64,000 bases of DNA, from NCBI GenBank assembly GCA_015039465.1, contig MU130532.1, positions 472,265 through 536,264 of the forward strand, in the 5' to 3' direction. Shown here piece by piece: positions 9,180-64,000 of this stretch. The notes beneath the pieces are model-generated. The model did no database searches and had not been told where the DNA came from. It saw nothing but the letters and a program-made list of their open reading frames with translations. This stretch comes from Phlegmacium glaucopus (Eukaryota; Basidiomycota; Agaricomycetes; Agaricales; Cortinariaceae). The position numbers and the translations under genes are program-made. Position 1 is the first letter of the stretch, and every line of letters starts with the position of its first letter.

Positions 9180-9365
9180 TTATTCAAGTCTAATAGTGAG
9201 ATGAGATGAGATGAGATAGTAATACAATGAGATAATAATAGAGAGATGGGATGAGATAGTAATAAAGAGATGAAATGAGATAGTAATAGAGAGATGAGAT
9301 GAGATAGTAATACATAGATGAAATGAGATAATAATAGAGAGATGAAATGAGATAGTAATAGAGGA
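9180..9365. repeat. Microsatellite/minisatellite of GATGAGATGAGATAGTAATAG type
   Basis: About seven imperfect tandem units of roughly 26 bp built from GAGAT, GAAAT and AGTAATA words. It lies at the 3' end of a broken hypothetical gene. Long reading frames here translate to repetitive YYYLISS/LLLSH peptides and are not genes. Confidence 0.9.
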
Positions 9366-46131: not shown

Positions 46132-47154
46132 ATGGACGACGCCTTCAAACTTCGACAGAAATATACTCGTTTTCGTATCCTCGTGATCGGCCGGGCCAAT
46201 GCTGGCAAGACAACGCTCTTGAAGCGAGTCTGCAATACGACCGAGGAGCCTTGCATTTACGACGAAAAGAGCAACAATCTGGTGCGTTTTCCCATCTAGT
46301 TGTGGATGGATCCCTGGTCTGAAAACTCGAATCAGTTGGACCCAACCTCAGAGGTAAGTAATCGCCATGTTTTGGTTGATTGAACCCGGATTTTTTGACT
46401 CTTGCTGCGAACTAGCGCGGGTGCCACGACATCCACCGCCCATTCGCGTTTTCTAGCAATCCTCAGTTCATCTTCCATGATTCTCCCGGATTTGAGGCGG
46501 GAGACGAGAATCAACTGAAGGAAGTACAGTCGTTCATTGAGAAGCGTGCAAGGTCCACCGATGTGGAGGACCAGCTTCATGCTATTTGGTCAGTTCCATT
46601 ATCTGGCTTCGTCATTTTATTCATTGCTGTTGTAGGTTCTGTTTCAAACCGGATAAATCTCGACCTCTATTGGAGTTAGAGCAGAGGTTTTTCAATGAGC
46701 CAAGAGCAGGAAATGGTGTGTTGTCTTCGTCTTTCTGAGCAACCACATTCAAATTGACATAAATATGATACCCAGCGCCAGTGATTGCAATCTTCACAAA
46801 GTTTGATGATCTGGTAATTCAGGTCTTCAAAAGGTCTTTAGGCATGCAGGGAAGTCGTGAAGAGGGGGTCAAGATATTGGAGGACAGGTTTCGAGCACCG
46901 TTGTTCAAGTATAAGTATCCACCAAAAGCACATGTATGCATGGAAGGCATGTGTCCTATGCTTCAGAGAGTATATCTGTTAGTTGACTTGATTGATATGC
47001 AGCCATGCACAAAGATGACAGCAACCATCAAAAGCAGGTGGAAGAACTGACAGACAAAACAGCAGATTCCCTGGATGACCTTGCACTCAAGATATTGTTT
47101 GTCTCACTTCAGCAAAATAATCTAGAACTGTGTATCACATATGCCATACAATAG
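46132..47154 (+). CDS. P-loop GTPase (G-domain protein), N-terminal G domain
   Basis: Exons 46132-46281, 46336-46353, 46416-46588, 46636-46725, 46776-~46950 and ~47010-47154 join in phase. G1 motif GRANAGKTT (about residues 20-28), G3 region FIFHDSPGFEAGDENQL, the HAIW-FCFKPD strand, and G4 APVIAIFTKFDDL; the tail contains KILFVSLQQNNLELCITYAI. This is the fungal dynamin/septin-like 'G domain-containing' GTPase type common in mushrooms. The frame meets TAG at 47152-47154. The gene at 52782 continues past this point in its own sequence to a membrane-type C-terminus, and exons matching such a C-terminus appear downstream here (see 47188-51722). The TAG may therefore be the true end, a premature stop, or be bypassed by splicing I could not resolve. 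Confidence 0.78.
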
Positions 47155-47187: not shown

Positions 47188-50100
47188 TTGATGCTGGTGC
47201 CAGTGCACCAAACCTGGGAAGCTCAGTTAAAATGGTTTGTCTTATTGTGAACCTGCAACTTATTACCCGGAGCTGAAGTTTCCAAAAGGAAAAGGTGGTG
47301 GAGGCCTGCATGCTATGGTTCTCCCATTCATATGTGAGTTGAAGTTACATTTGTTTTGTTCAATATTCATCAATAGCATAAAAAGATCTGGGTGAGTACA
47401 AGATTGACAGAGGTAAGAGGCCTATCTCTACTTAAACTTTTTGGTTAGCTGATGCAGGTGTAATAGTAGATGAACTTGGGGGCTGATGATGAGAAGAACT
47501 ATGTATGAAACATCCAGACTTTACTTACCAAAAGACCTGAAGTAATAATCTGTTATTAGGATGTAAGTCATCTTATAATTGACATGCAGACAGTTATTGA
47601 CTGATTGTTTCTTTTAACAGTATGTGAGTTGTATAATTTATACCAAAGATTTAGAGGCATTCAACAAGGTTTCCAGGGGAAAACAGTAAGAAAGCAATCA
47701 TGACAGTAAAGCCCAAAACTGAACTTTGATGTGAAGGAGGTATGAGGTTAAGTCATTCCCATTGAAGTGCTGATGAGGCCACTGGAAAATGTTTCCAGAA
47801 AGTGAGTCCCTCTCTTGCTTTACAATTTGACTGACTGACCTGAAAATGTGTCCAGCTTGTGAGTCCTTGTCTTTTGCCTTAAGGTTTGACTGACTGACTT
47901 GAAAATGTGTCCAGGGAGTGAGCCCCTCTCTTGCCTTGAAATATAGCTGACTGACCTGAAAATGCGCCCAGGAAGTGAGTCCTCCCTCTTGGCTTAAATT
48001 TTGGCTGACTGACCTGAAAATGTGTCCAGCGAGTAAGTCCCTCTCTCTTGCCTTAAAATTTGACTGACATCAGAATATGTCCAGAGAGTGAGTCCTCCCT
48101 CCCTTGCCTTAATATTTGGCTGACTGATCTGAAAATGTATTCAGGAAGTGAGTCTCTCTCTCTTGCCCTTTTGGCTGACTGATCCTGAAAATGTATCTAG
48201 CAAGTGAGTCCCTCTATCTTGCCTTAAAATTTAGCTGACTGGTCTAAAAATGTGTCCAGCTTGTGAGTCCCTCTCTCTCTTGGCTTAAAATTTAGCTGAC
48301 CTACCTGAAAATGTGTCCAGGAAGTGAGTGCCTCTATCTTGTCTTAAAATTTGGCTGACCTGAAAATGTGTCTAGTTTGTGAGTCACCCCCACTTTAGAA
48401 TTTGGCTGACTGACTTGAAAATGTGTGCAGGAAGTGAGTCTCTCTCTCATCTTAAAATTTAGCTGACTGACCTGAAAATGTGTTCAGGAAGTGAGTCCCT
48501 CTCTCTTGCCTTTGAATTAGCTGAGTGACCTGTAAATTGTGTCCAGGGAGTGAGTCACTCTCTCTTGCCTGAATATTTGGCTGGCTGACCTGAAAATATG
48601 TGCAGGAAGTGAGTCCCTCTCTCTTGGCTTAAAATTTGGCTGACTGGCCTGAAAATGTGTCCAGGAAGTGAGTCTCTCTTTCTTACCTTTGGATTTAACT
48701 TACTGACCTGGAAATGTGTCCAGGAAGTGAGTCTGTCTCTCTTGGCTTGGCCAACTGACCTGAAACTGTGTGCAGGAAGTGAGTCTCTCTCTCTTGCCTT
48801 AAAACTTGGCTTGCTGACCTAAAAATGTGTTCAGCGAGTAAGTCCTTTTCTTGCCTTAAAATTTGGCTGACTGACCTGGAAATGTATCTAGCGAGTGAGT
48901 CCCTCTTTATTGCCTGGAAATTTGGCTCACTGACCTTAAAATGTGTCCAGGGAGTGAGTCCTCTGTCTTAAGATTTGGCTGATTGACCTGAAAATATATT
49001 TAGAGAGTGAGTCCCTCTCTCTTGCCCTAAAATTTGCTTGACTGACCTGACCTGAAATTTTGTCCAGGGGGTAAGTCCCCTATCTTGCCTTGAAATGTAG
49101 CTGACAGACCTGAAAATGTGTCCAGCTTGTGGGTCCCTCTCCCTCTCTTGCCTTAAGACTTGCCTGACTGATCTGAAAATATGTCCAGCTTGTGAGTTCC
49201 TCTCTCTTCTCTCTTGCCTTTAAAATTTGCCTGACTGACTTGAAAATGAATTCAGCTTGTGAGTTCCTCTCTTTTGGCTTAAAATTTGCCTGACTGACCT
49301 GAAATTGTGTCCAGCTTGTGAGTTTCTCTCCTCTTGCCTTAAATTTTGCCTGACTGACCAGAAACTTTGTCCAGGGAGTGAGTCCCTCTGTCTTGCCTAA
49401 ATATTTGGCTGACTGACCCTGACAATGTGTCCAGCTTGTAAGTTCCTCCCTCTTGCCTTAAAATGTGGCTAACTAAGCTCAAAATATGTCCAGCGAGTAA
49501 ATCCCTCTCCTACATCAAATTTTACCTCACTGACCTGAAAATGTGTCTAGCCAGTAAGTCCTTCTATCTTGTCTTAAAATTTGACTGATGAACCTGAAAA
49601 TGTCTCCAGAAAGTGAGTCCCTCTCTTGACTTAAAATTTGGCTGACTGACCTGAAAATGTGTCCAGCTTGTGAGTCCCTCTCTGTTGCCTTAAAATATTG
49701 CTCAGACCTGAAAATGTGTCCAGGAAGTGGGTCCCTCTCTCTTGCCTTAAAACTTGCCTGACTGATCTGAAAATATGTCCAGCTTGTGAGTTCCTCTCTC
49801 TTGCCTTGAAATTTGCCTTACTGATCTGAAACTTTCTTCAGGAAGTGAGTCTTTCTCTCTTGCCTTTAAATTTGCCTAACTGACCTGAAAATATGTCTAG
49901 CGAGTGAGTCCCTCTCTCTTGCCTTAAACTTTGGCTGATTGTCATAAAAATATGTCCAGAGAGTGTGTCCCTCTCTCTTGCCCTGATATTTGGCTCACTG
50001 ACCTGGAAATGTGTCTAGCGAGTGAGTCCCTCTCTCTTGTTTGAAATTTTGGCAAACTTGCCTGACAATGCACCCAGCTTGTAAGTCTCTCTCTTGCCTT

Positions 50101-51722
50101 ATAATTTAACTGATTGATCTGAATATGTATCTAGAGAGTGAGTCCCTCTCTCCTGCCTTAAAAATTGCCTGACTGACCTGGAAATGTATTCAGTTTGTGA
50201 GTCCCACTCTCTTGCCTCAAAATTTGGTCCACTGAAAATGTGTCTAGTTTGTGAGTCCCTCTCTCTTGCCTTAAAATTTGGCTGACTGGCCTGCCATTGT
50301 GTCCAGCGAGTGAGTCCCTTCTCTTGCCTTAAAATTTGGCTGACTGACCTGAAAATGTGTTCAGCAAGTGAGTTCCTCTCTTCTCTTAAGACTTGCCTGA
50401 CTGACCTGAAAGTGTGTCTAGGAAGTGAGTCCCTCTCTCTTGCCTTAGAACCTGCCTGACTGATCTAAAAATATATCCAGCTTGTGAGTTCTTCTTGCCT
50501 AAAATTTGCCTGACTGAGCTGAAAATGTGTCCAGGAAGTGAGCCTGTCTTTCTTGCCTCAAAATTTGACTAACTGACCTGAAAATGTGTCCAGGGAGTAA
50601 GTCCCTCTTTCTCACCTCAAAATTTGGCTCACTGACCTGAACATGTCTTTAGGAAGTGAGTCCCTCTCTCTTACCTTAACAGTTAGTTGATTGATTTGAA
50701 AATCTGTCCAGGGAGTGAGTCCCTCTCTCTTGCTTTAAAATTTGCCTCACTGAGCTGAAAATCTGTCCAGCTTGTGAGTCCTTCTCTCTTGTATAAAAAT
50801 TTGGCTGATGGACCTGAAAATGTGCCTAGGAAGTGAGTGCCTCTATCTTGTGCTGACCAACCTAAAAATGTGTCCAGTTTGTAAGTCCCTCTCTCTTGCC
50901 TTGAATTTGGCTGACTGATCTGACCTGAAAATGTGTCCAGTTTGTGAGTCCCTCTCCCTTGTCTTAAAATTTGGCCAACCAACATGTAAATGTGTCCAGT
51001 TTGTGAGTTTCTCTATCTGCCCTAAAAATTTGGCTGACTGACCTAAAAATATCCAGGAAGTGAGTCCTCCCTTGCCTTAAAATTTGGCTGACTGACCTAA
51101 ACATGTGTCCAGGAAGTGAGTCCCTCTCTCTCACCTGAAAAGTGGTTTACCAGTAGTTCATCCAGTTTGTGAGTCTTTTCTCACCTTTCTGTAAAGTTTC
51201 ACTGCTGATCAGTGACAATGCCTTTTGAATCTGTCCTTGTCTTGATTTCCCTAGTTGAAAAATAAACAAGCAGTGATAAATTTTATTGAAACCACATTTG
51301 ACTTGTCTCCATCTTGTACACAAGTTGATTGGAACCAGACATATTGTCTGTCTGTGTTTGCTGGTCTGTCTGGTTTCCTCCCTGCCTTGATACCATTCTT
51401 ACTGTTCTTCTTTCACCTTCTACATTATCTAGCACTTCTAATTTGTCTGGAGAATTCTTTTTGGAACCAGTCTCAATCTACCTCCTTCATTGATGGCTTT
51501 TGCAAGGCTTTTGAAATTTACACAAAAGGTGGTATAAGGGAGAAGGTGGAGGTTGCACTTGAAGGACTTGGGGATTGGCCTAGTGAAGAGCATAGGGATG
51601 GACTGTGTGAATTCAAATCCAAACTATCTGAAACAATTCTCAAGCATCTACTCAGTAAGTTTAATTCTATCTTCTCACTGGCATACATGTAACATGTACC
51701 AATCCTGCTATTAGGCCAATGA
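47188..51722 (+). CDS. Micro-exon-rich continuation of the GTPase gene (putative)
   Basis: A chain of exons in one phase can be followed from 47188: 47188-47234 (LMLVPVHQTWEAQLK), 47279-47333 (FQKEKVVEACMLWFSHSY), 47377-47412 (HKKIWVSTRLTE) and 47470-47502 (MNLGADDEKNY). Then come one-codon exons GAT 47560-47562 and TAT 47621-47623, a three-codon exon 47677-47685, GAG 47737-47739, and 59 further one-codon exons from 47799 to 51168. A final exon starts at 51255 and ends, after an intron at about 51656-51714, at TGA 51720-51722. The last exon's FKSKLSETILKHLLS resembles LETKIGDLIRELLQ at the end of the GTPase at 52782, and LALLICLENSFW resembles its VDLTLVLHNIF. Inference: this is the C-terminal part of the GTPase that starts at 46132. 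No transcript evidence is available; exact splicing of the first and last exons is uncertain. Confidence 0.5.
47802..51254 (+). repeat. Tandem array of ~57-bp intron-like units (minisatellite made of mini-introns)
   Basis: Fifty-nine consecutive units of about 45-64 nt (last one 86 nt). Each begins GTGAGT (variants GTAAGT, GTGGGT, GTGAGC, GTGTGT, GTAAAT), is followed by CCCTCTCTCTTGCCTTAAAA-like sequence, carries CTGAC about 16-24 nt before its end and finishes TGTCCAG, TTCAG, TCTAG or similar. Between one AG and the next GT there are always exactly 3 nt: GAA 17 times, CTT 12, CGA 7, TTT 7, GGA 6, AGA 4, AAA 2, CAA 2, CCA 1, GGG 1. Indels among units fall only inside the intron-like part. Reverse-strand frames such as LVGQILRQGRGTHKLDTFSG are shadows of the repeat. 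Confidence 0.95.
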
Positions 51723-52781: not shown

Positions 52782-54762
52782 ATGGCCGCGATCTCCACTG
52801 ATTTACCATCGAGGGTTGAAGAAACCCTTGCTGCATGTCCTCAGTGCGTCTCATTCCATCAATCGTCCCTAGATCTTTCTCATTTCCCTGGTCGAATAGA
52901 TTTCGTATCCTTGTCATCGGAAAAGTTTGGGGTTTTCCTTGGTGCCTCCATACGCAGGACTAACCACGATGGTTCGTATAGAGTGGTGTCGGAAAGTCTT
53001 CCCTCGTCAGCAACATCTTCAATATTGCTGTGAAGGTATATCTGCCATTATATCTTCTAGAATGACTGAGTCTGAGAATTCATAGGATATTGATATCCGA
53101 CATGATCGTGCTGGGAACGCCGATATCTCGTATGGGTACACGTCTACTAAAAATATTCGGTTCATCCTCCACGACAGCCTAGGTTTTGAACCTGGCACAG
53201 TCAACCACTGGAAAATTGTAGAGGATTTTCTCCGTCAGAGAAGTACTGTTGCGTCACAGTTGCAAGATCGAGTCCACGCGATTTGGTAGCCTGCTTTATT
53301 CTTCATATTACATATAATATATCCCAGTTAACTGATATTTTTCCAGGCTGTGTATAGAAGCCCCACGAGCTGGATCGAGGGTGCAGGAAACGAGCGATGA
53401 GAACCTCTTACAGCTTGCTAAGGAATGTAAGACGAGTTCGAACTGTCAGCTCCTATGGATGACTAATTCCCAACAAAGTAAAAATTCCTGTCATTGTTGT
53501 GTTCACCAAATACGACATGCTCGTCAACGAATACTACCAAGAGGCACTGATAGCTAATGTGTCACAGTGGGAGATTGACCTGATCTCAGAAAGAAACGCC
53601 GAAATTAGTTTCAATAATCGTATTGGTGATTTTCGAACGTCATCGCAAGTCCCATGTGTGAAGGTATCAACCGATGAAGACTACCCTGGTTTGTCTTCGT
53701 TGTTATCACCAAGTTCGTTAGAAATCTCATCAAGCATGCAGGGAAGGACCGTTTGAGAACACTTCAGGAATTGGTCGACATCACTAGGAATTGTTTGCAT
53801 GAAGTTGAAGGAGACCTCTGGATTCTGTGGGCCACAACTCAGCGAATCAGCGCGCATCAGAAAGTTCAGCGCTCCATTAGGTACGCGCCCTAGCCCAGCC
53901 CGGCCAAATACCATAGGATAACCACTGTTACCCGTCTAGCGAAGGCTACAAGAGCACGTACTTCTCTTTCTGAGCAATTACAAACCCTGACTTTCACCAT
54001 AGAATATTGGCTGGATTTAGGAAGAAGTTCCGTTTTTCAAGGGCGTTACCTGATCGAATGTCTTTGGCGTATCCACGACGACATTCTCAAGATCTGGAAT
54101 TTCAATGACCCACAAAATGTTGGTAGACTCCAACATCTTATCCGCTGGACATATTCAAATGATATACCTTCAGCTACTTTCAGGAAACCTGTTTTTCGCT
54201 CAAATGATCCACCTTGTCGAACCGTTGTTGAGCGAATACGAAAACCCAATCAGGCAGTAAGGTTTGAGTTTCAATTGATTTCTGCTATAATCTAAGTTAG
54301 TTTTGTCTCTAGAGATAACTGGCTTTCGCAGTACTCCAATGTGATGTCTCTGGTAACTGCTGTGAGTACCACTCTTGCGCCGGTTCTGGGTGCTGTTGGG
54401 ATTAGTGCCATCGCTTTCAAGTTCCTCTATGGAAAGTACCAAAAGATGTACGTAAGACATTCTTTGATTGATTTTAAAACCCTATTGAACAATTGCATAG
54501 CCCATTGACTGCAGGATATCTGGGAGCATACATTGTCGACCTCACATTGGTTCTCCACAATATTTTTATAGATACACTCGGTATGGAACCACCAAGACCT
54601 TTATCGCAAGACCTCATTACTGGTGTGGTGGAGAGCCACAAATACTTGGGTGCCAAGACGGTTCACAATCGCATTTTCGCGATGACCTCTGGGTTACCTT
54701 TACATCTCGAGACGAAAATTGGAGACCTGATTCGGGAGTTGCTCCAAATAGATAAGGAATAA
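52782..54762 (+). CDS. Second P-loop GTPase with hydrophobic C-terminal region
   Basis: Exons 52782-52843, 52900-52924, 52982-53035, 53086-53285 and further short exons. The P-loop GKSGVGKSSL is split by an intron (52925-52981) between GK and SGVGKS. G3 lies in FILHDSLGFEPGTVNHWKIV, then HAIWLCIEAPRAG, and G4 is PVIVVFTKYDML. After an intron at about 53662-53712 the frame continues RTLQELVDITRNCLHEVEGD, then LWILWATTQRIS. The C-terminus has a hydrophobic segment TTLAPVLGAVGISAIAF and ends LETKIGDLIRELLQIDKE. Splicing around 53880-54005 could not be resolved without a frame change, so a defect there is possible. Probably a membrane-associated GTPase; a relative of the gene at 46132. Confidence 0.72.
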
Positions 54763-61799: not shown

Positions 61800-64000
61800 G
61801 GGGAGGGAACAGGAACCCTAGCGACCTTAGCTAACATTGTGGTGGGTTATAACAATTGTTATGGCTTACAGTGTGACAACTTGGGCAAAGAGAGATACTA
61901 CTACAGAGTCTCGGTTAGTTACCTAGTATTGTTCAGAGTCTTGGTTAGTTACCTAGTGGTGGTCAGAATTAGCGGATGCTTGCACATCTAGTCTTTTAGT
62001 CTTCAACTATTAGTCCGGTCAGGGAACCTACAAAGGTCTGTTTACAGTTCCACGTGATCCTACTTATGGTTTCTTCAGTAGTTATTAGTCTCAGCTTTAG
62101 TCCGATCAGGGAACCTACAAAGGTCTGTTTATAGTTCCACGTGATCCTCTAATGGTGTCTTCAGTTATTAGTCCGGTCAAGGAACCTACAAAGGTCTGCT
62201 TATAGCTCCATGGACCTTCTAATGGGTTCGTTCAGTTAAGAGATGGCTTCAAAAATAGTCAGTTACGTTGTGAATAAGCTGTTACAAGTGACCTACAGAA
62301 GTGACCTTCTGGATGAGGAGAACGACAATAGTGTTAGGTAGTAAAAACAGATTGAGACACGGCTAGTGTTTCATTGACAGTTGGTTTGTTTATTACGCTT
62401 CTAGGTACTGCTACCTAAGAATGTCAGGTTCTAGCAAAGAGGGGAAAATAAAGGGAGAAGTAGTTTAAGAAAGTTTCGTGGCCGACGTAGTGCTGCTGAA
62501 ATGAAGGGTAAAGTAAGTGAAGAACTTAACAAAGGGCAAGAGTTGTCAGTGGTGTGAATAGACTTACTACAAGTTTTGAGAGGTTAGTACTGTTTCTGGA
62601 AGTCCTGTTGATCTGAGTGGTAAGGTATGGGGGTCGGTATGAGGCCTTTGGCCCCTGCCAAAGTTAAAAGTGAACGCGCCACCCGAGGTCTATATTTCTA
62701 GAGTTTCTGTAATTCTGGTATACAGAAAGCCATATTTAGCAACAACAACAACATATATTTGTGGTTGGTCTCTCGTCACCTGGTCTGGAATCCAGTTCTC
62801 AGAGGGACAACAAGCAAATCCCTTCCACATTGGAATCTGAACATTGTGTGTCTCCATCCCCCACTCTTATCTCTATTCCTCCTACTCCTACTTACTCTTA
62901 CTCAGAAGTCATTCTGATATCGTCAACTGTCTTCCAACTGTCACTCCCTGACTTTTTCGCTTGAGTCTCCCTCATTCCTTCTCCTACTCCTCCTTATTCT
63001 CAGAAGTCATTCTGATATCATTAACTGTCATCCCTATCTAACTGTGAATTCCCGTCTTTTTCGCTTGAACTCCTTCCTTAAGTGACCTTAAGGTGACTCT
63101 CCTACTATTAACCCCCCCCCATTCTTACTTAACTCTACTTTGATGGATAGGACCATGTTTTCTCGTCATAAATATGGGATTCCTACTCCGATACATTTTG
63201 TTATTTTTTTCTTTCTTCATGCGTGACAGTTTTCTTCTTTCTACTTCTCTCCTGTCGACGCTCTTCTTTTCTTGTTACCTTTTCTTCTTCCTTGTTATTT
63301 TTCTAGACATTTTACAGTTTCACGCTCTCTTTTCTTCTCTTCCGTCACATGTATCAGGTTATCGTTTTTATATAGCTGAGGTTTCCGCACACCAGTACAG
63401 TTTTTACACTTTCCAGGACTCAGTTGTGAACTTTCCGCGTCGGAACAAGGGCTCTTTTGTGATGAACGGGTACTCAGGGTACAGCGCGTCGGAACTATTG
63501 TGAACTGTGTGACGCTCTTATTAGGAGACGACGACTAAGTAGACGTTAAGGACGAATCAGCACTAGGAGGACCTGAAGGATTTAACAGTATTTCTCCCAC
63601 CCTTCCGAAGTCCATGGCGCACTTACTACCAAAACCGTCACTTACTATTCTATTCTCCATCTATTCACTCCTATCCCCTGACTCACTCTAGGTCCTCGCT
63701 CCATACCGTTCTATCTATCGACTCCTCTTCTGAACACCCAGGTATCGGTGTTGTTGCTACTGTTTCGGAAACTGTATTACCCTCTACATCGACTACGCAG
63801 GTATTTGCCCGGCAAGAACTTTACTACCCGGTATCTACGCTAGTTTGCGCTCGGCTACTGGCTACGCTTATCATCTAACTAGCGAAACAACATAGTGATC
63901 GGTTCCCTGTTTGCCTACCATCTACAATTCCTCGTACAGCTATCACATTTACTATCTGTTGTATCACCTTCTGTAACTCCTATACTACTCGCTACTCCTA
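61800..64000. other. String-reversed (not complemented) block: LTR copy C plus internal region written backwards
   Basis: Read from 64000 down to 61800 without complementing, the text begins ATCCTCATCGCTCATCATAT, exactly what follows GATAAC in LTR copies A and B. It then tracks copies A/B with only a few differences per 100 bp through TATAAATACTG (63180-63161 backwards) to the LTR end near 62830. The remaining ~1 kb, again only when read backwards, holds ACAACAACAACAACG-type leader sequence and short open stretches as expected inside an LTR element, including three ~75-bp repeats (as written, GGTCAGGGAACCTACAAAGG near 62018, 62105 and 62176). Frames predicted in the given orientation (62761, 63174 and others) are meaningless. 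Confidence 0.93.

Follow-up and report, generated by a model that had tools for sequence, protein, structure and literature searches.

An array of predicted one-codon exons between tandem introns in a G-domain GTPase gene of the mushroom Phlegmacium glaucopus

The window analyzed here is a 64,000-nucleotide (nt) stretch of the Phlegmacium glaucopus genome (assembly GCA_015039465.1, contig MU130532.1, positions 472,265 to 536,264, forward strand), and positions within it are counted from its first letter. It contains a predicted GTPase gene and, between the helical and C-terminal exons of this gene, a tandem array at 47802-51254. The array is made up of 59 GT...AG units, with donors from 47802 to 51169 and the final acceptor at 51254, and every unit is preceded by exactly 3 nt (59/59), that is, by one of 58 triplets lying between units or by the AAA ahead of the first donor. 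This count leaves aside, by manual choice, two AGNNNGT sites that occur by chance within units (at 49552 and 50680). The original prediction had described the units as spliceosomal introns separated by single codons, and its description of their anatomy was confirmed: the bodies measure 45 to 64 nt, the last one 86 nt; the donors are GTGAGT (45/59), GTAAGT (8), GTGAGC (2), GTGGGT (2), GTAAAT (1), and GTGTGT (1); the acceptors are CAG (46) and TAG (13); and a branch-like YTRAB motif is present in 55 of the 59 units, with its A located 17 nt from the intron end in 40 of these 55. Judged by their GT-AG ends, donor consensus, branch-like motif, and fungal length, the units thus resemble U2-type introns. 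The extent given for the array, on the forward strand, was also correct, but the one-codon exons GAT, TAT, and GAG further upstream and the many other arrays in the genome had been missed.

No AG or GT has been lost from the array, as had been claimed. When 58 units are aligned, both are invariant (58/58 each) while the bodies drift, with body columns averaging a conservation of 0.82 and the triplet columns being the least conserved of all (0.36-0.67). For 232 AG/GT letters to stay intact at the rate of the bodies, p is ~3e-20, a naive figure because the units share ancestry. Were any of the 59 introns retained, a stop codon or a frameshift would result, and the C-terminal exon has an open phase-0 frame starting at 51255. 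The array is therefore most likely removed as 59 separate introns, with the one-codon exons joined in phase 0. The product predicted by our parser around the array reads D-Y-GKT-E-K-array-LKNKQAVINF.

The host gene, whose predicted protein starts with MDDAFKLRQKY (Table 1), is, by its sequence, a G-domain (MMR_HSR1-like) GTPase of an Agaricomycetes family. Homology searches returned 1168 homologues at E values up to 0.001; among the 120 listed, the best is 91% identical over the full query, and the listed proteins are annotated as G domain-containing or GTP-binding proteins of Agaricomycetes. One exon of the family, queried genome-wide, gave 94 matches. The Pfam family MMR_HSR1 is matched above its cutoff by the relative P0018 (25.9 versus 21.9 bits), while exon 1 of the window gene alone scores 20.2 bits, below the cutoff, and P0087, which lacks the P-loop end, gave no MMR_HSR1 match. 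A NACHT match in the window gene stays below the cutoff (15.7 versus 26.7 bits), and the gene does not qualify as a NACHT or NB-ARC host. What is apparently the GenBank model of the window gene, P0004 (98% identity across 80% of the query), is a partial model of 200 residues that stops before the array. In a structure model of the GTPase, immunity-related GTPases were among the top fold matches. A second structure model (P0127, mean predicted local distance difference test [pLDDT] score of 74.7) has low confidence in the array region and was not used further. Exon 5 is followed at 46947 by an apparent GC-AG intron (GAAG/GCATGT), and the parser draws the region of the KNY exon as 47470-47502.

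Table 1. Predicted exons of the host gene and the array (window positions)
Feature	Position	Strand	Basis
Predicted exon 1, P-loop of G domain (MDDAFKLRQKYTRFRILVIGRANAGKTTLLKRV...)	46132..46281	+	Open frame, homologues
Predicted exon 2, LDPTSE	46336..46353	+	Sequence reading; same residues in P0004
Predicted exon 3, G domain (RGCHDIHRPFAF...VEDQLHAIW)	46416..46588	+	Open frame; 94 genome-wide matches
Predicted exon 4 (FCFKPDKSRPLLELEQRFFNEPRAGN)	46636..46715	+	Sequence reading; agrees with homologues
Predicted exon 5 (PVIAIFTKFDDL...), then apparent GC-AG intron	46776..46946	+	Sequence reading; homologues
Predicted exon 6 (MHKDDSNHQKQ...NNLELCITYAIQ)	47003..47153	+	Open frame
Predicted helical exon (VVEACMLWFSHSY), start uncertain	47295..47333	+	Matches WFRHSY of relatives
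Likely exon KNY, weak acceptor GAG	47494..47502	+	Matches NSY/NNY before D-Y in cDNA-like relatives P0121, P0126
Predicted one-codon exon GAT (D)	47560..47562	+	Parser; YDY motif of P0087, P0121, P0126, P0127, P0131
Predicted one-codon exon TAT (Y)	47621..47623	+	Parser
Predicted 9-nt exon GGGAAAACA (GKT)	47677..47685	+	Parser; GKT/EKT in cDNA-like relatives
Predicted one-codon exon GAG (E), completes GKT-E, acceptor AAG	47737..47739	+	Parser
Predicted one-codon exon AAA (K), precedes first array intron	47799..47801	+	Unit alignment, parser
Array: 59 predicted introns, 58 one-codon exons between (LGERREQLEFEEGEEEERRGRGLLLLGLRPKLELERRRLRFFRQELEGEGLEFFFEEF)	47802..51254	+	Alignment, parser, splice-site counts
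Predicted C-terminal exon, phase 0 (LKNKQAVINFIETTF...LLICLENSFWNQ...)	51255..51654	+	Open frame

Two further observations in the window concern its surroundings. A second, diverged G-domain gene lies just downstream on the same strand (53116-53286; 39% identity to the query exon), and further minisatellites with 24-bp and 71-bp units are found at 9191-9363 and 62097-62238, respectively.

Support for splicing of such arrays comes from relatives with sequences that resemble complementary DNA (cDNA). Among 54 proteins taken from three homology searches, 14 are encoded on contigs of 0.9-1.6 kb that extend from the helical exon through the C-terminal one, the family introns being removed. In 11 of these 14, an insert of 10-33 residues, in many cases low in complexity (for example, EGGLGGGRLGGRLGHLRLGLGGRGGGLGHLRL), follows YDYGKTE or a variant of it and precedes the C-terminal exon, at the exact site where a spliced array would fall, and the D, Y, and E of this motif are one-codon exons in the genome of the window. 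The amino acid composition of the inserts correlates more strongly with that of the arrays (r of 0.71) than with that of the flanks (0.32), the value for arrays with flanks being 0.54. The two closest pairs of relatives differ mostly within the insert: P0123 and P0124 are 83% identical upstream and 90% downstream, with only 6/16 matching residues in the insert, and P0121 and P0131 are 93% identical upstream, with 10/20 in the insert and only 42% downstream, where P0131 seems to retain an intron. In P0130, KTEDG is followed by VSCSLLFLQNWMTDEAT, and the introns of a paralogous array on contig C124 translate as VSCSLHFVQNWMTDKAT; with 14 of 17 residues matching, P0130 seems to represent an incompletely spliced transcript from a close relative. 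Taken together, these cDNA-like sequences suggest that arrays are spliced into a peptide at this site.

The same architecture recurs elsewhere in the genome. For this analysis, 18 regions including the window were read with a dynamic-programming parser. Its splice matrices were generic fungal ones, chosen by hand on the basis of general knowledge, and exon length did not enter its scoring. Among parsed exons of up to 60 nt, 512 of 601 are 3 nt long, compared with 25 of 259 on the reverse strand, and many of the longer "exons" mark spots where a unit has no recognizable splice site. One of the 18 regions, on C209, contains no array. Beyond the window array, the one-codon architecture is present in another 18 arrays, of which 16 were parsed and two read on paralogues, and these are spread over 13 other contigs; paralogous arrays vary in length. 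By eye, the repeats of C3, C6/C16, C7, C24, C41/C67, and the window have different sequences and a common architecture. A genome-wide pattern of three successive donors, counted as overlapping triples, gave 421 matches with a 3-nt gap versus 41 for the reversed-pattern control, and 115 versus 19 when both codons were required to start with G. With a 4-nt gap there were 27 matches, all on C203 and C249 (control, 103), with a 5-nt gap there were none in either case, and with a 6-nt gap there were none (control, 1). The contigs with the 4-nt pattern, which also have G-domain exons, carry a different tandem repeat of ~76-79 bp (C203:154000-155068 and C249:10030-11174), in which ~3 nt in the middle of the unit vary and the remainder is nearly constant; it fits the 4-nt pattern on the strand opposite the GTPase exon.

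Arrays are also associated with a second, unrelated gene family. On C6 (303700-309929), an array starts ~150 nt past an open frame with an NPHP3_N match above the cutoff (E of 4.7e-29) and a NACHT match just under it (24.8 versus 26.7 bits; E of 2.2e-5). C16 (27000-33900) carries a frame that looks homologous to that of C6 by eye, with a NACHT-like sensor motif, also seen by eye, and an array just downstream; Pfam gave one weak match, below the cutoff, for this piece. The open frame after the NACHT region of C6 has no Pfam or PDB sequence match, and NCBIfam and PADLOC searches returned weak generic matches only. The open frames on C6 and C16 resemble NACHT proteins of the STAND (signal transduction ATPases with numerous domains) class and are similar to NOD-like receptors (NLRs), a family unrelated to the window GTPase. 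Large arrays are furthermore found on C41 (113401-115194; 26 one-codon exons parsed), C67 (15589-17122; 29 parsed), C17, and C93, with some 5-nt exons (TGATG and ATTAT) at the decayed ends of arrays of the C41/C67 type. None of 199 homology-search proteins gave a tblastn match in the C41 and C67 regions, and two open frames upstream of the C41 array matched no Pfam family.

Stop codons are nearly absent from the triplets. Only 1 of 512 is a stop (a TAG on C106, array C106a), compared with a mean of 26.2 when columns were shuffled within arrays, and none of 10,000 shuffles had one stop or fewer; read in the two remaining phases, the joined triplets contain 4 and 83 stops. A single codon is used per amino acid in 0.948 of 286 cases in the window family and in 0.88-1.00 in six smaller families, compared with 0.485 of 293 codons in the flanking exons of the window gene. 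For unit pairs with a body identity of 95% or more, available in 10 arrays, the difference between triplets amounts to 17-70% of positions and that between bodies to 0.4-3.7%, the latter range being limited by the choice of pairs with similar bodies. The paralogous arrays of C7, C176, and C219 offer a less biased sample. Here, a 13-nt donor motif occurs at 64 sites, and a 67-nt body with a terminal AG is found at 59 of them. One consensus is matched exactly by 50 of these 59 bodies, while the triplets comprise ten codons (GCT 22, GAT 18, CAT 6, TCT 4, TAT 3, GGT 2, and CAA, GTT, CTT, and GGA 1 each) with a T in the third position in 57 of 59. Equal neighboring codons are in excess (99 versus a shuffle mean of 72.2 and a maximum of 97 in 2000 shuffles), which is what duplication of single units predicts. 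The arrays therefore show the internally conserved units and hypervariable codons by which NLR-type repeats are recognized, and this pattern fits homogenization of the units combined with selection for amino acid change; a targeted mutational process as the source of codon diversity is compatible with it as well. In array C82c (C82:57296-64879), the codons spell RRRFVG-GRRRFVG, which resembles the outcome of a block duplication of recent date in which codons were copied along with their units.

Several observations weigh against this interpretation. The constancy of the 3-nt gap, which the original prediction had taken as a sign of selection, was overstated as such: only ~2 gap indels are expected in the window array from the variation in body length, so that finding none is unremarkable. 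Over all arrays, frame-changing interior exons number 2 of 427, versus 8.7 indels expected, and when array edges are counted, 12 of 528, versus 10.8 expected. Some arrays have lost splice sites or contain 4- or 2-nt exons (GCAT on C7 and GA on C87), and C106a has its TAG triplet. The invariance of AG and GT is partly built in by the parser in the other arrays but not in the window, which has no skipped unit. Similarly, part of the likeness of the introns is built in, because pairs were picked for similar bodies and units were found by the 13-nt donor motif. Among the relatives, it is from the absence of introns and the short length that the jgi/lgn contigs are taken to be cDNA, and P0124, P0126, and P0131 each seem to keep one intron; insert ends were placed by hand, P0129 and P0089 have no clear insert, and P0134 has a similar insert but no KTE anchor. 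As to the protein, the whole-chain fold match is weak (template modeling [TM] score of about 0.32-0.39 for the immunity-related entries), and septins and EngB are nearly equal in G-domain fold score. A heptad or coiled-coil reading of the peptides was considered; it holds for array C82d only (p of 0.007), fails correction for the 12 arrays tested, and is not claimed.

With these points in mind, how else could the array be explained? It could be a noncoding minisatellite within one large intron, with the GKT-E region spliced straight to 51255. The array is, after all, a tandem repeat, P0001 and the partial P0004 both end ahead of the array region, the Laccaria model P0043 has no insert, and the constant gap is weak evidence on its own; set against this are the invariant AG and GT, the avoidance of stops, the use of one codon per amino acid, the recurrence of the 3-nt architecture in repeats of different sequence, and the array-type peptides in cDNA-like relatives, and we consider a minisatellite very improbable. 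Decay of a tandem repeat was likewise rejected as the main explanation because of stop avoidance, splice-site invariance, and the cDNA-like relatives, whereas the statistic on gaps would not by itself suffice for a rejection. Slightly less credible than the minisatellite is a decayed pseudogene with the array as a relic. The apparent GenBank model is indeed partial, and a paralogue contains a TAG triplet, but the exons of the window gene read open, its 59 unit boundaries are intact, and its array has no stop triplet.

Mobile introns of the introner type, inserted between the codons of a preexisting coding stretch, would account for introns that are nearly the same, even on separate contigs, although the codons that lie between them differ. 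They would, however, have had to insert at codon boundaries repeatedly and almost never in phase 1 or 2, and an ancestral coding sequence would show a synonymous variety that is nearly absent here; the excess of identical neighboring codons is, moreover, as predicted by unit duplication. No solitary copies were seen in unrelated genes, although the sole genome-wide search, with a 360-base piece of the window array (73 matches, on C82, C91, C106, C134, C181, and C207), was hardly able to find them. We give this origin as little credence as a minisatellite. A stronger contender, though still an unlikely one, is combinatorial splicing as the main role of the array, in which random skipping of exons would let one gene produce peptides of many lengths. 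Skipping would never disturb the frame, as each exon is a single codon, whichever donor is joined to whichever downstream acceptor; P0130 reads KTE-D-G where its close relative P0131 reads KTE-D-V-G, and the tandem dual-specific sites of human UBC are spliced stochastically (PMC10809524). On the other hand, P0130 and P0131 differ elsewhere and may be separate genes or alleles, the inserts of 10-33 residues in relatives lie within the range of genomic array lengths, and no pair of isoforms from a single gene was seen among the relatives.

Splicing with single-codon exons, as proposed originally, thus appears to be the best-supported reading, given the invariant splice sites, stop avoidance, the phase-0 C-terminal exon, and the array-type peptides in relatives. 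We consider it highly probable that phase-0 splicing joins the one-codon exons into a peptide that is likely hypervariable, with homogenized introns and diversified codons. The 59 one-codon exons, preceded by the one-codon D, Y, and E, would be joined into a segment between the GTPase domain and the C-terminal helical domain. Concerted evolution, by unit duplication and conversion, would keep the introns alike, and diversifying selection would change the codons between them, so that array length and codon order could be rewritten with the reading frame unbroken. As the arrays of sister genes have near-identical introns and different codons, this is likely a fast way to vary a protein segment. 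Most speculatively, the protein might be an immunity-like NTPase in which the peptide has a role in recognition or in regulation; the grounds for this are the array behind a NACHT/STAND gene and the resemblance of the GTPase model to immunity-related GTPases.

In its widest form, the proposal is that of a eukaryotic diversity-generating architecture in mushrooms, in which immunity-like NTPases, both GTPases and NACHT/STAND proteins, would have a recognition segment to which each exon contributes one amino acid. The introns would be the recombining, homogenized repeat and the single codons the hypervariable payload, and units could be duplicated, lost, converted, or skipped at the RNA level with the frame kept. 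We consider this about as likely as not. Serial one-codon exons would put splicing by intron definition to an extreme test and would open a new route to protein diversity through frame-safe insertion, deletion, and shuffling of single residues. They could also be the reason that certain gene models in this large family of mushroom genes (P0001 and P0004) end before the array region. Two questions become testable as well: whether such arrays function in nonself recognition in fungi, and whether selection by itself produces the codon diversity or a targeted process does. Among the matches listed in the open-licence PubMed Central (PMC) literature, we found no description of such arrays.

Schistosome micro-exons measure about 6-36 nt, and we know of no micro-exon or bicycle gene whose introns form one homogenized tandem repeat. 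Exons in those genes are longer than the 3 nt seen here. Like schistosome micro-exon genes and the bicycle and megacycle genes of aphids, which evolve fast and in the case of megacycle genes have >100 microexons, the genes described here appear to evolve rapidly and have many tiny exons (PMC9168663). Human polyubiquitin UBC, whose 228-nt coding monomers can be used as either exon or intron, likewise has splice sites in tandem at its unit boundaries, but these are dual specific, whereas donor and acceptor are distinct here and the units are introns (PMC10809524). The 1-nt exons of plant APC11 and VPS55 (PMC8831610) and the two 3-nt exons of fungal lipS (PMC5639578) indicate that the spliceosome copes with such sizes; there they are single or few, and here dozens would follow in series. 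Together, micro-exon and bicycle genes, UBC arrays, and isolated 1- to 3-nt exons may be regarded as the nearest structural analogues. Fungal introner-like elements and stwintrons are near-identical spliceosomal introns that multiply (PMC4457414 and PMC8469720), but they are dispersed or nested, while the introns of the array lie head to tail with one codon between them. A term search of the introner paper by Gozashti (PMC9860276) for Cortinarius, basidiomyc-, tandem, mushroom, and agaric- returned nothing.

Fungal NLR genes with WD, ANK, or TPR repeats have units kept alike by concerted evolution, in which a few codons are hypervariable under diversifying selection (PMC4986451). The arrays share with them the conserved units and the hypervariable codons, and a NACHT/STAND open frame precedes one of the arrays. 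The NLR repeats are protein, with variation confined to some of the codons, whereas an array unit consists almost entirely of intron and has a single codon as its whole coding payload, a combination that none of the compared systems displays in the excerpts cited. In evolutionary terms, the repeats of fungal NLRs would seem to be the nearest analogue of the arrays.

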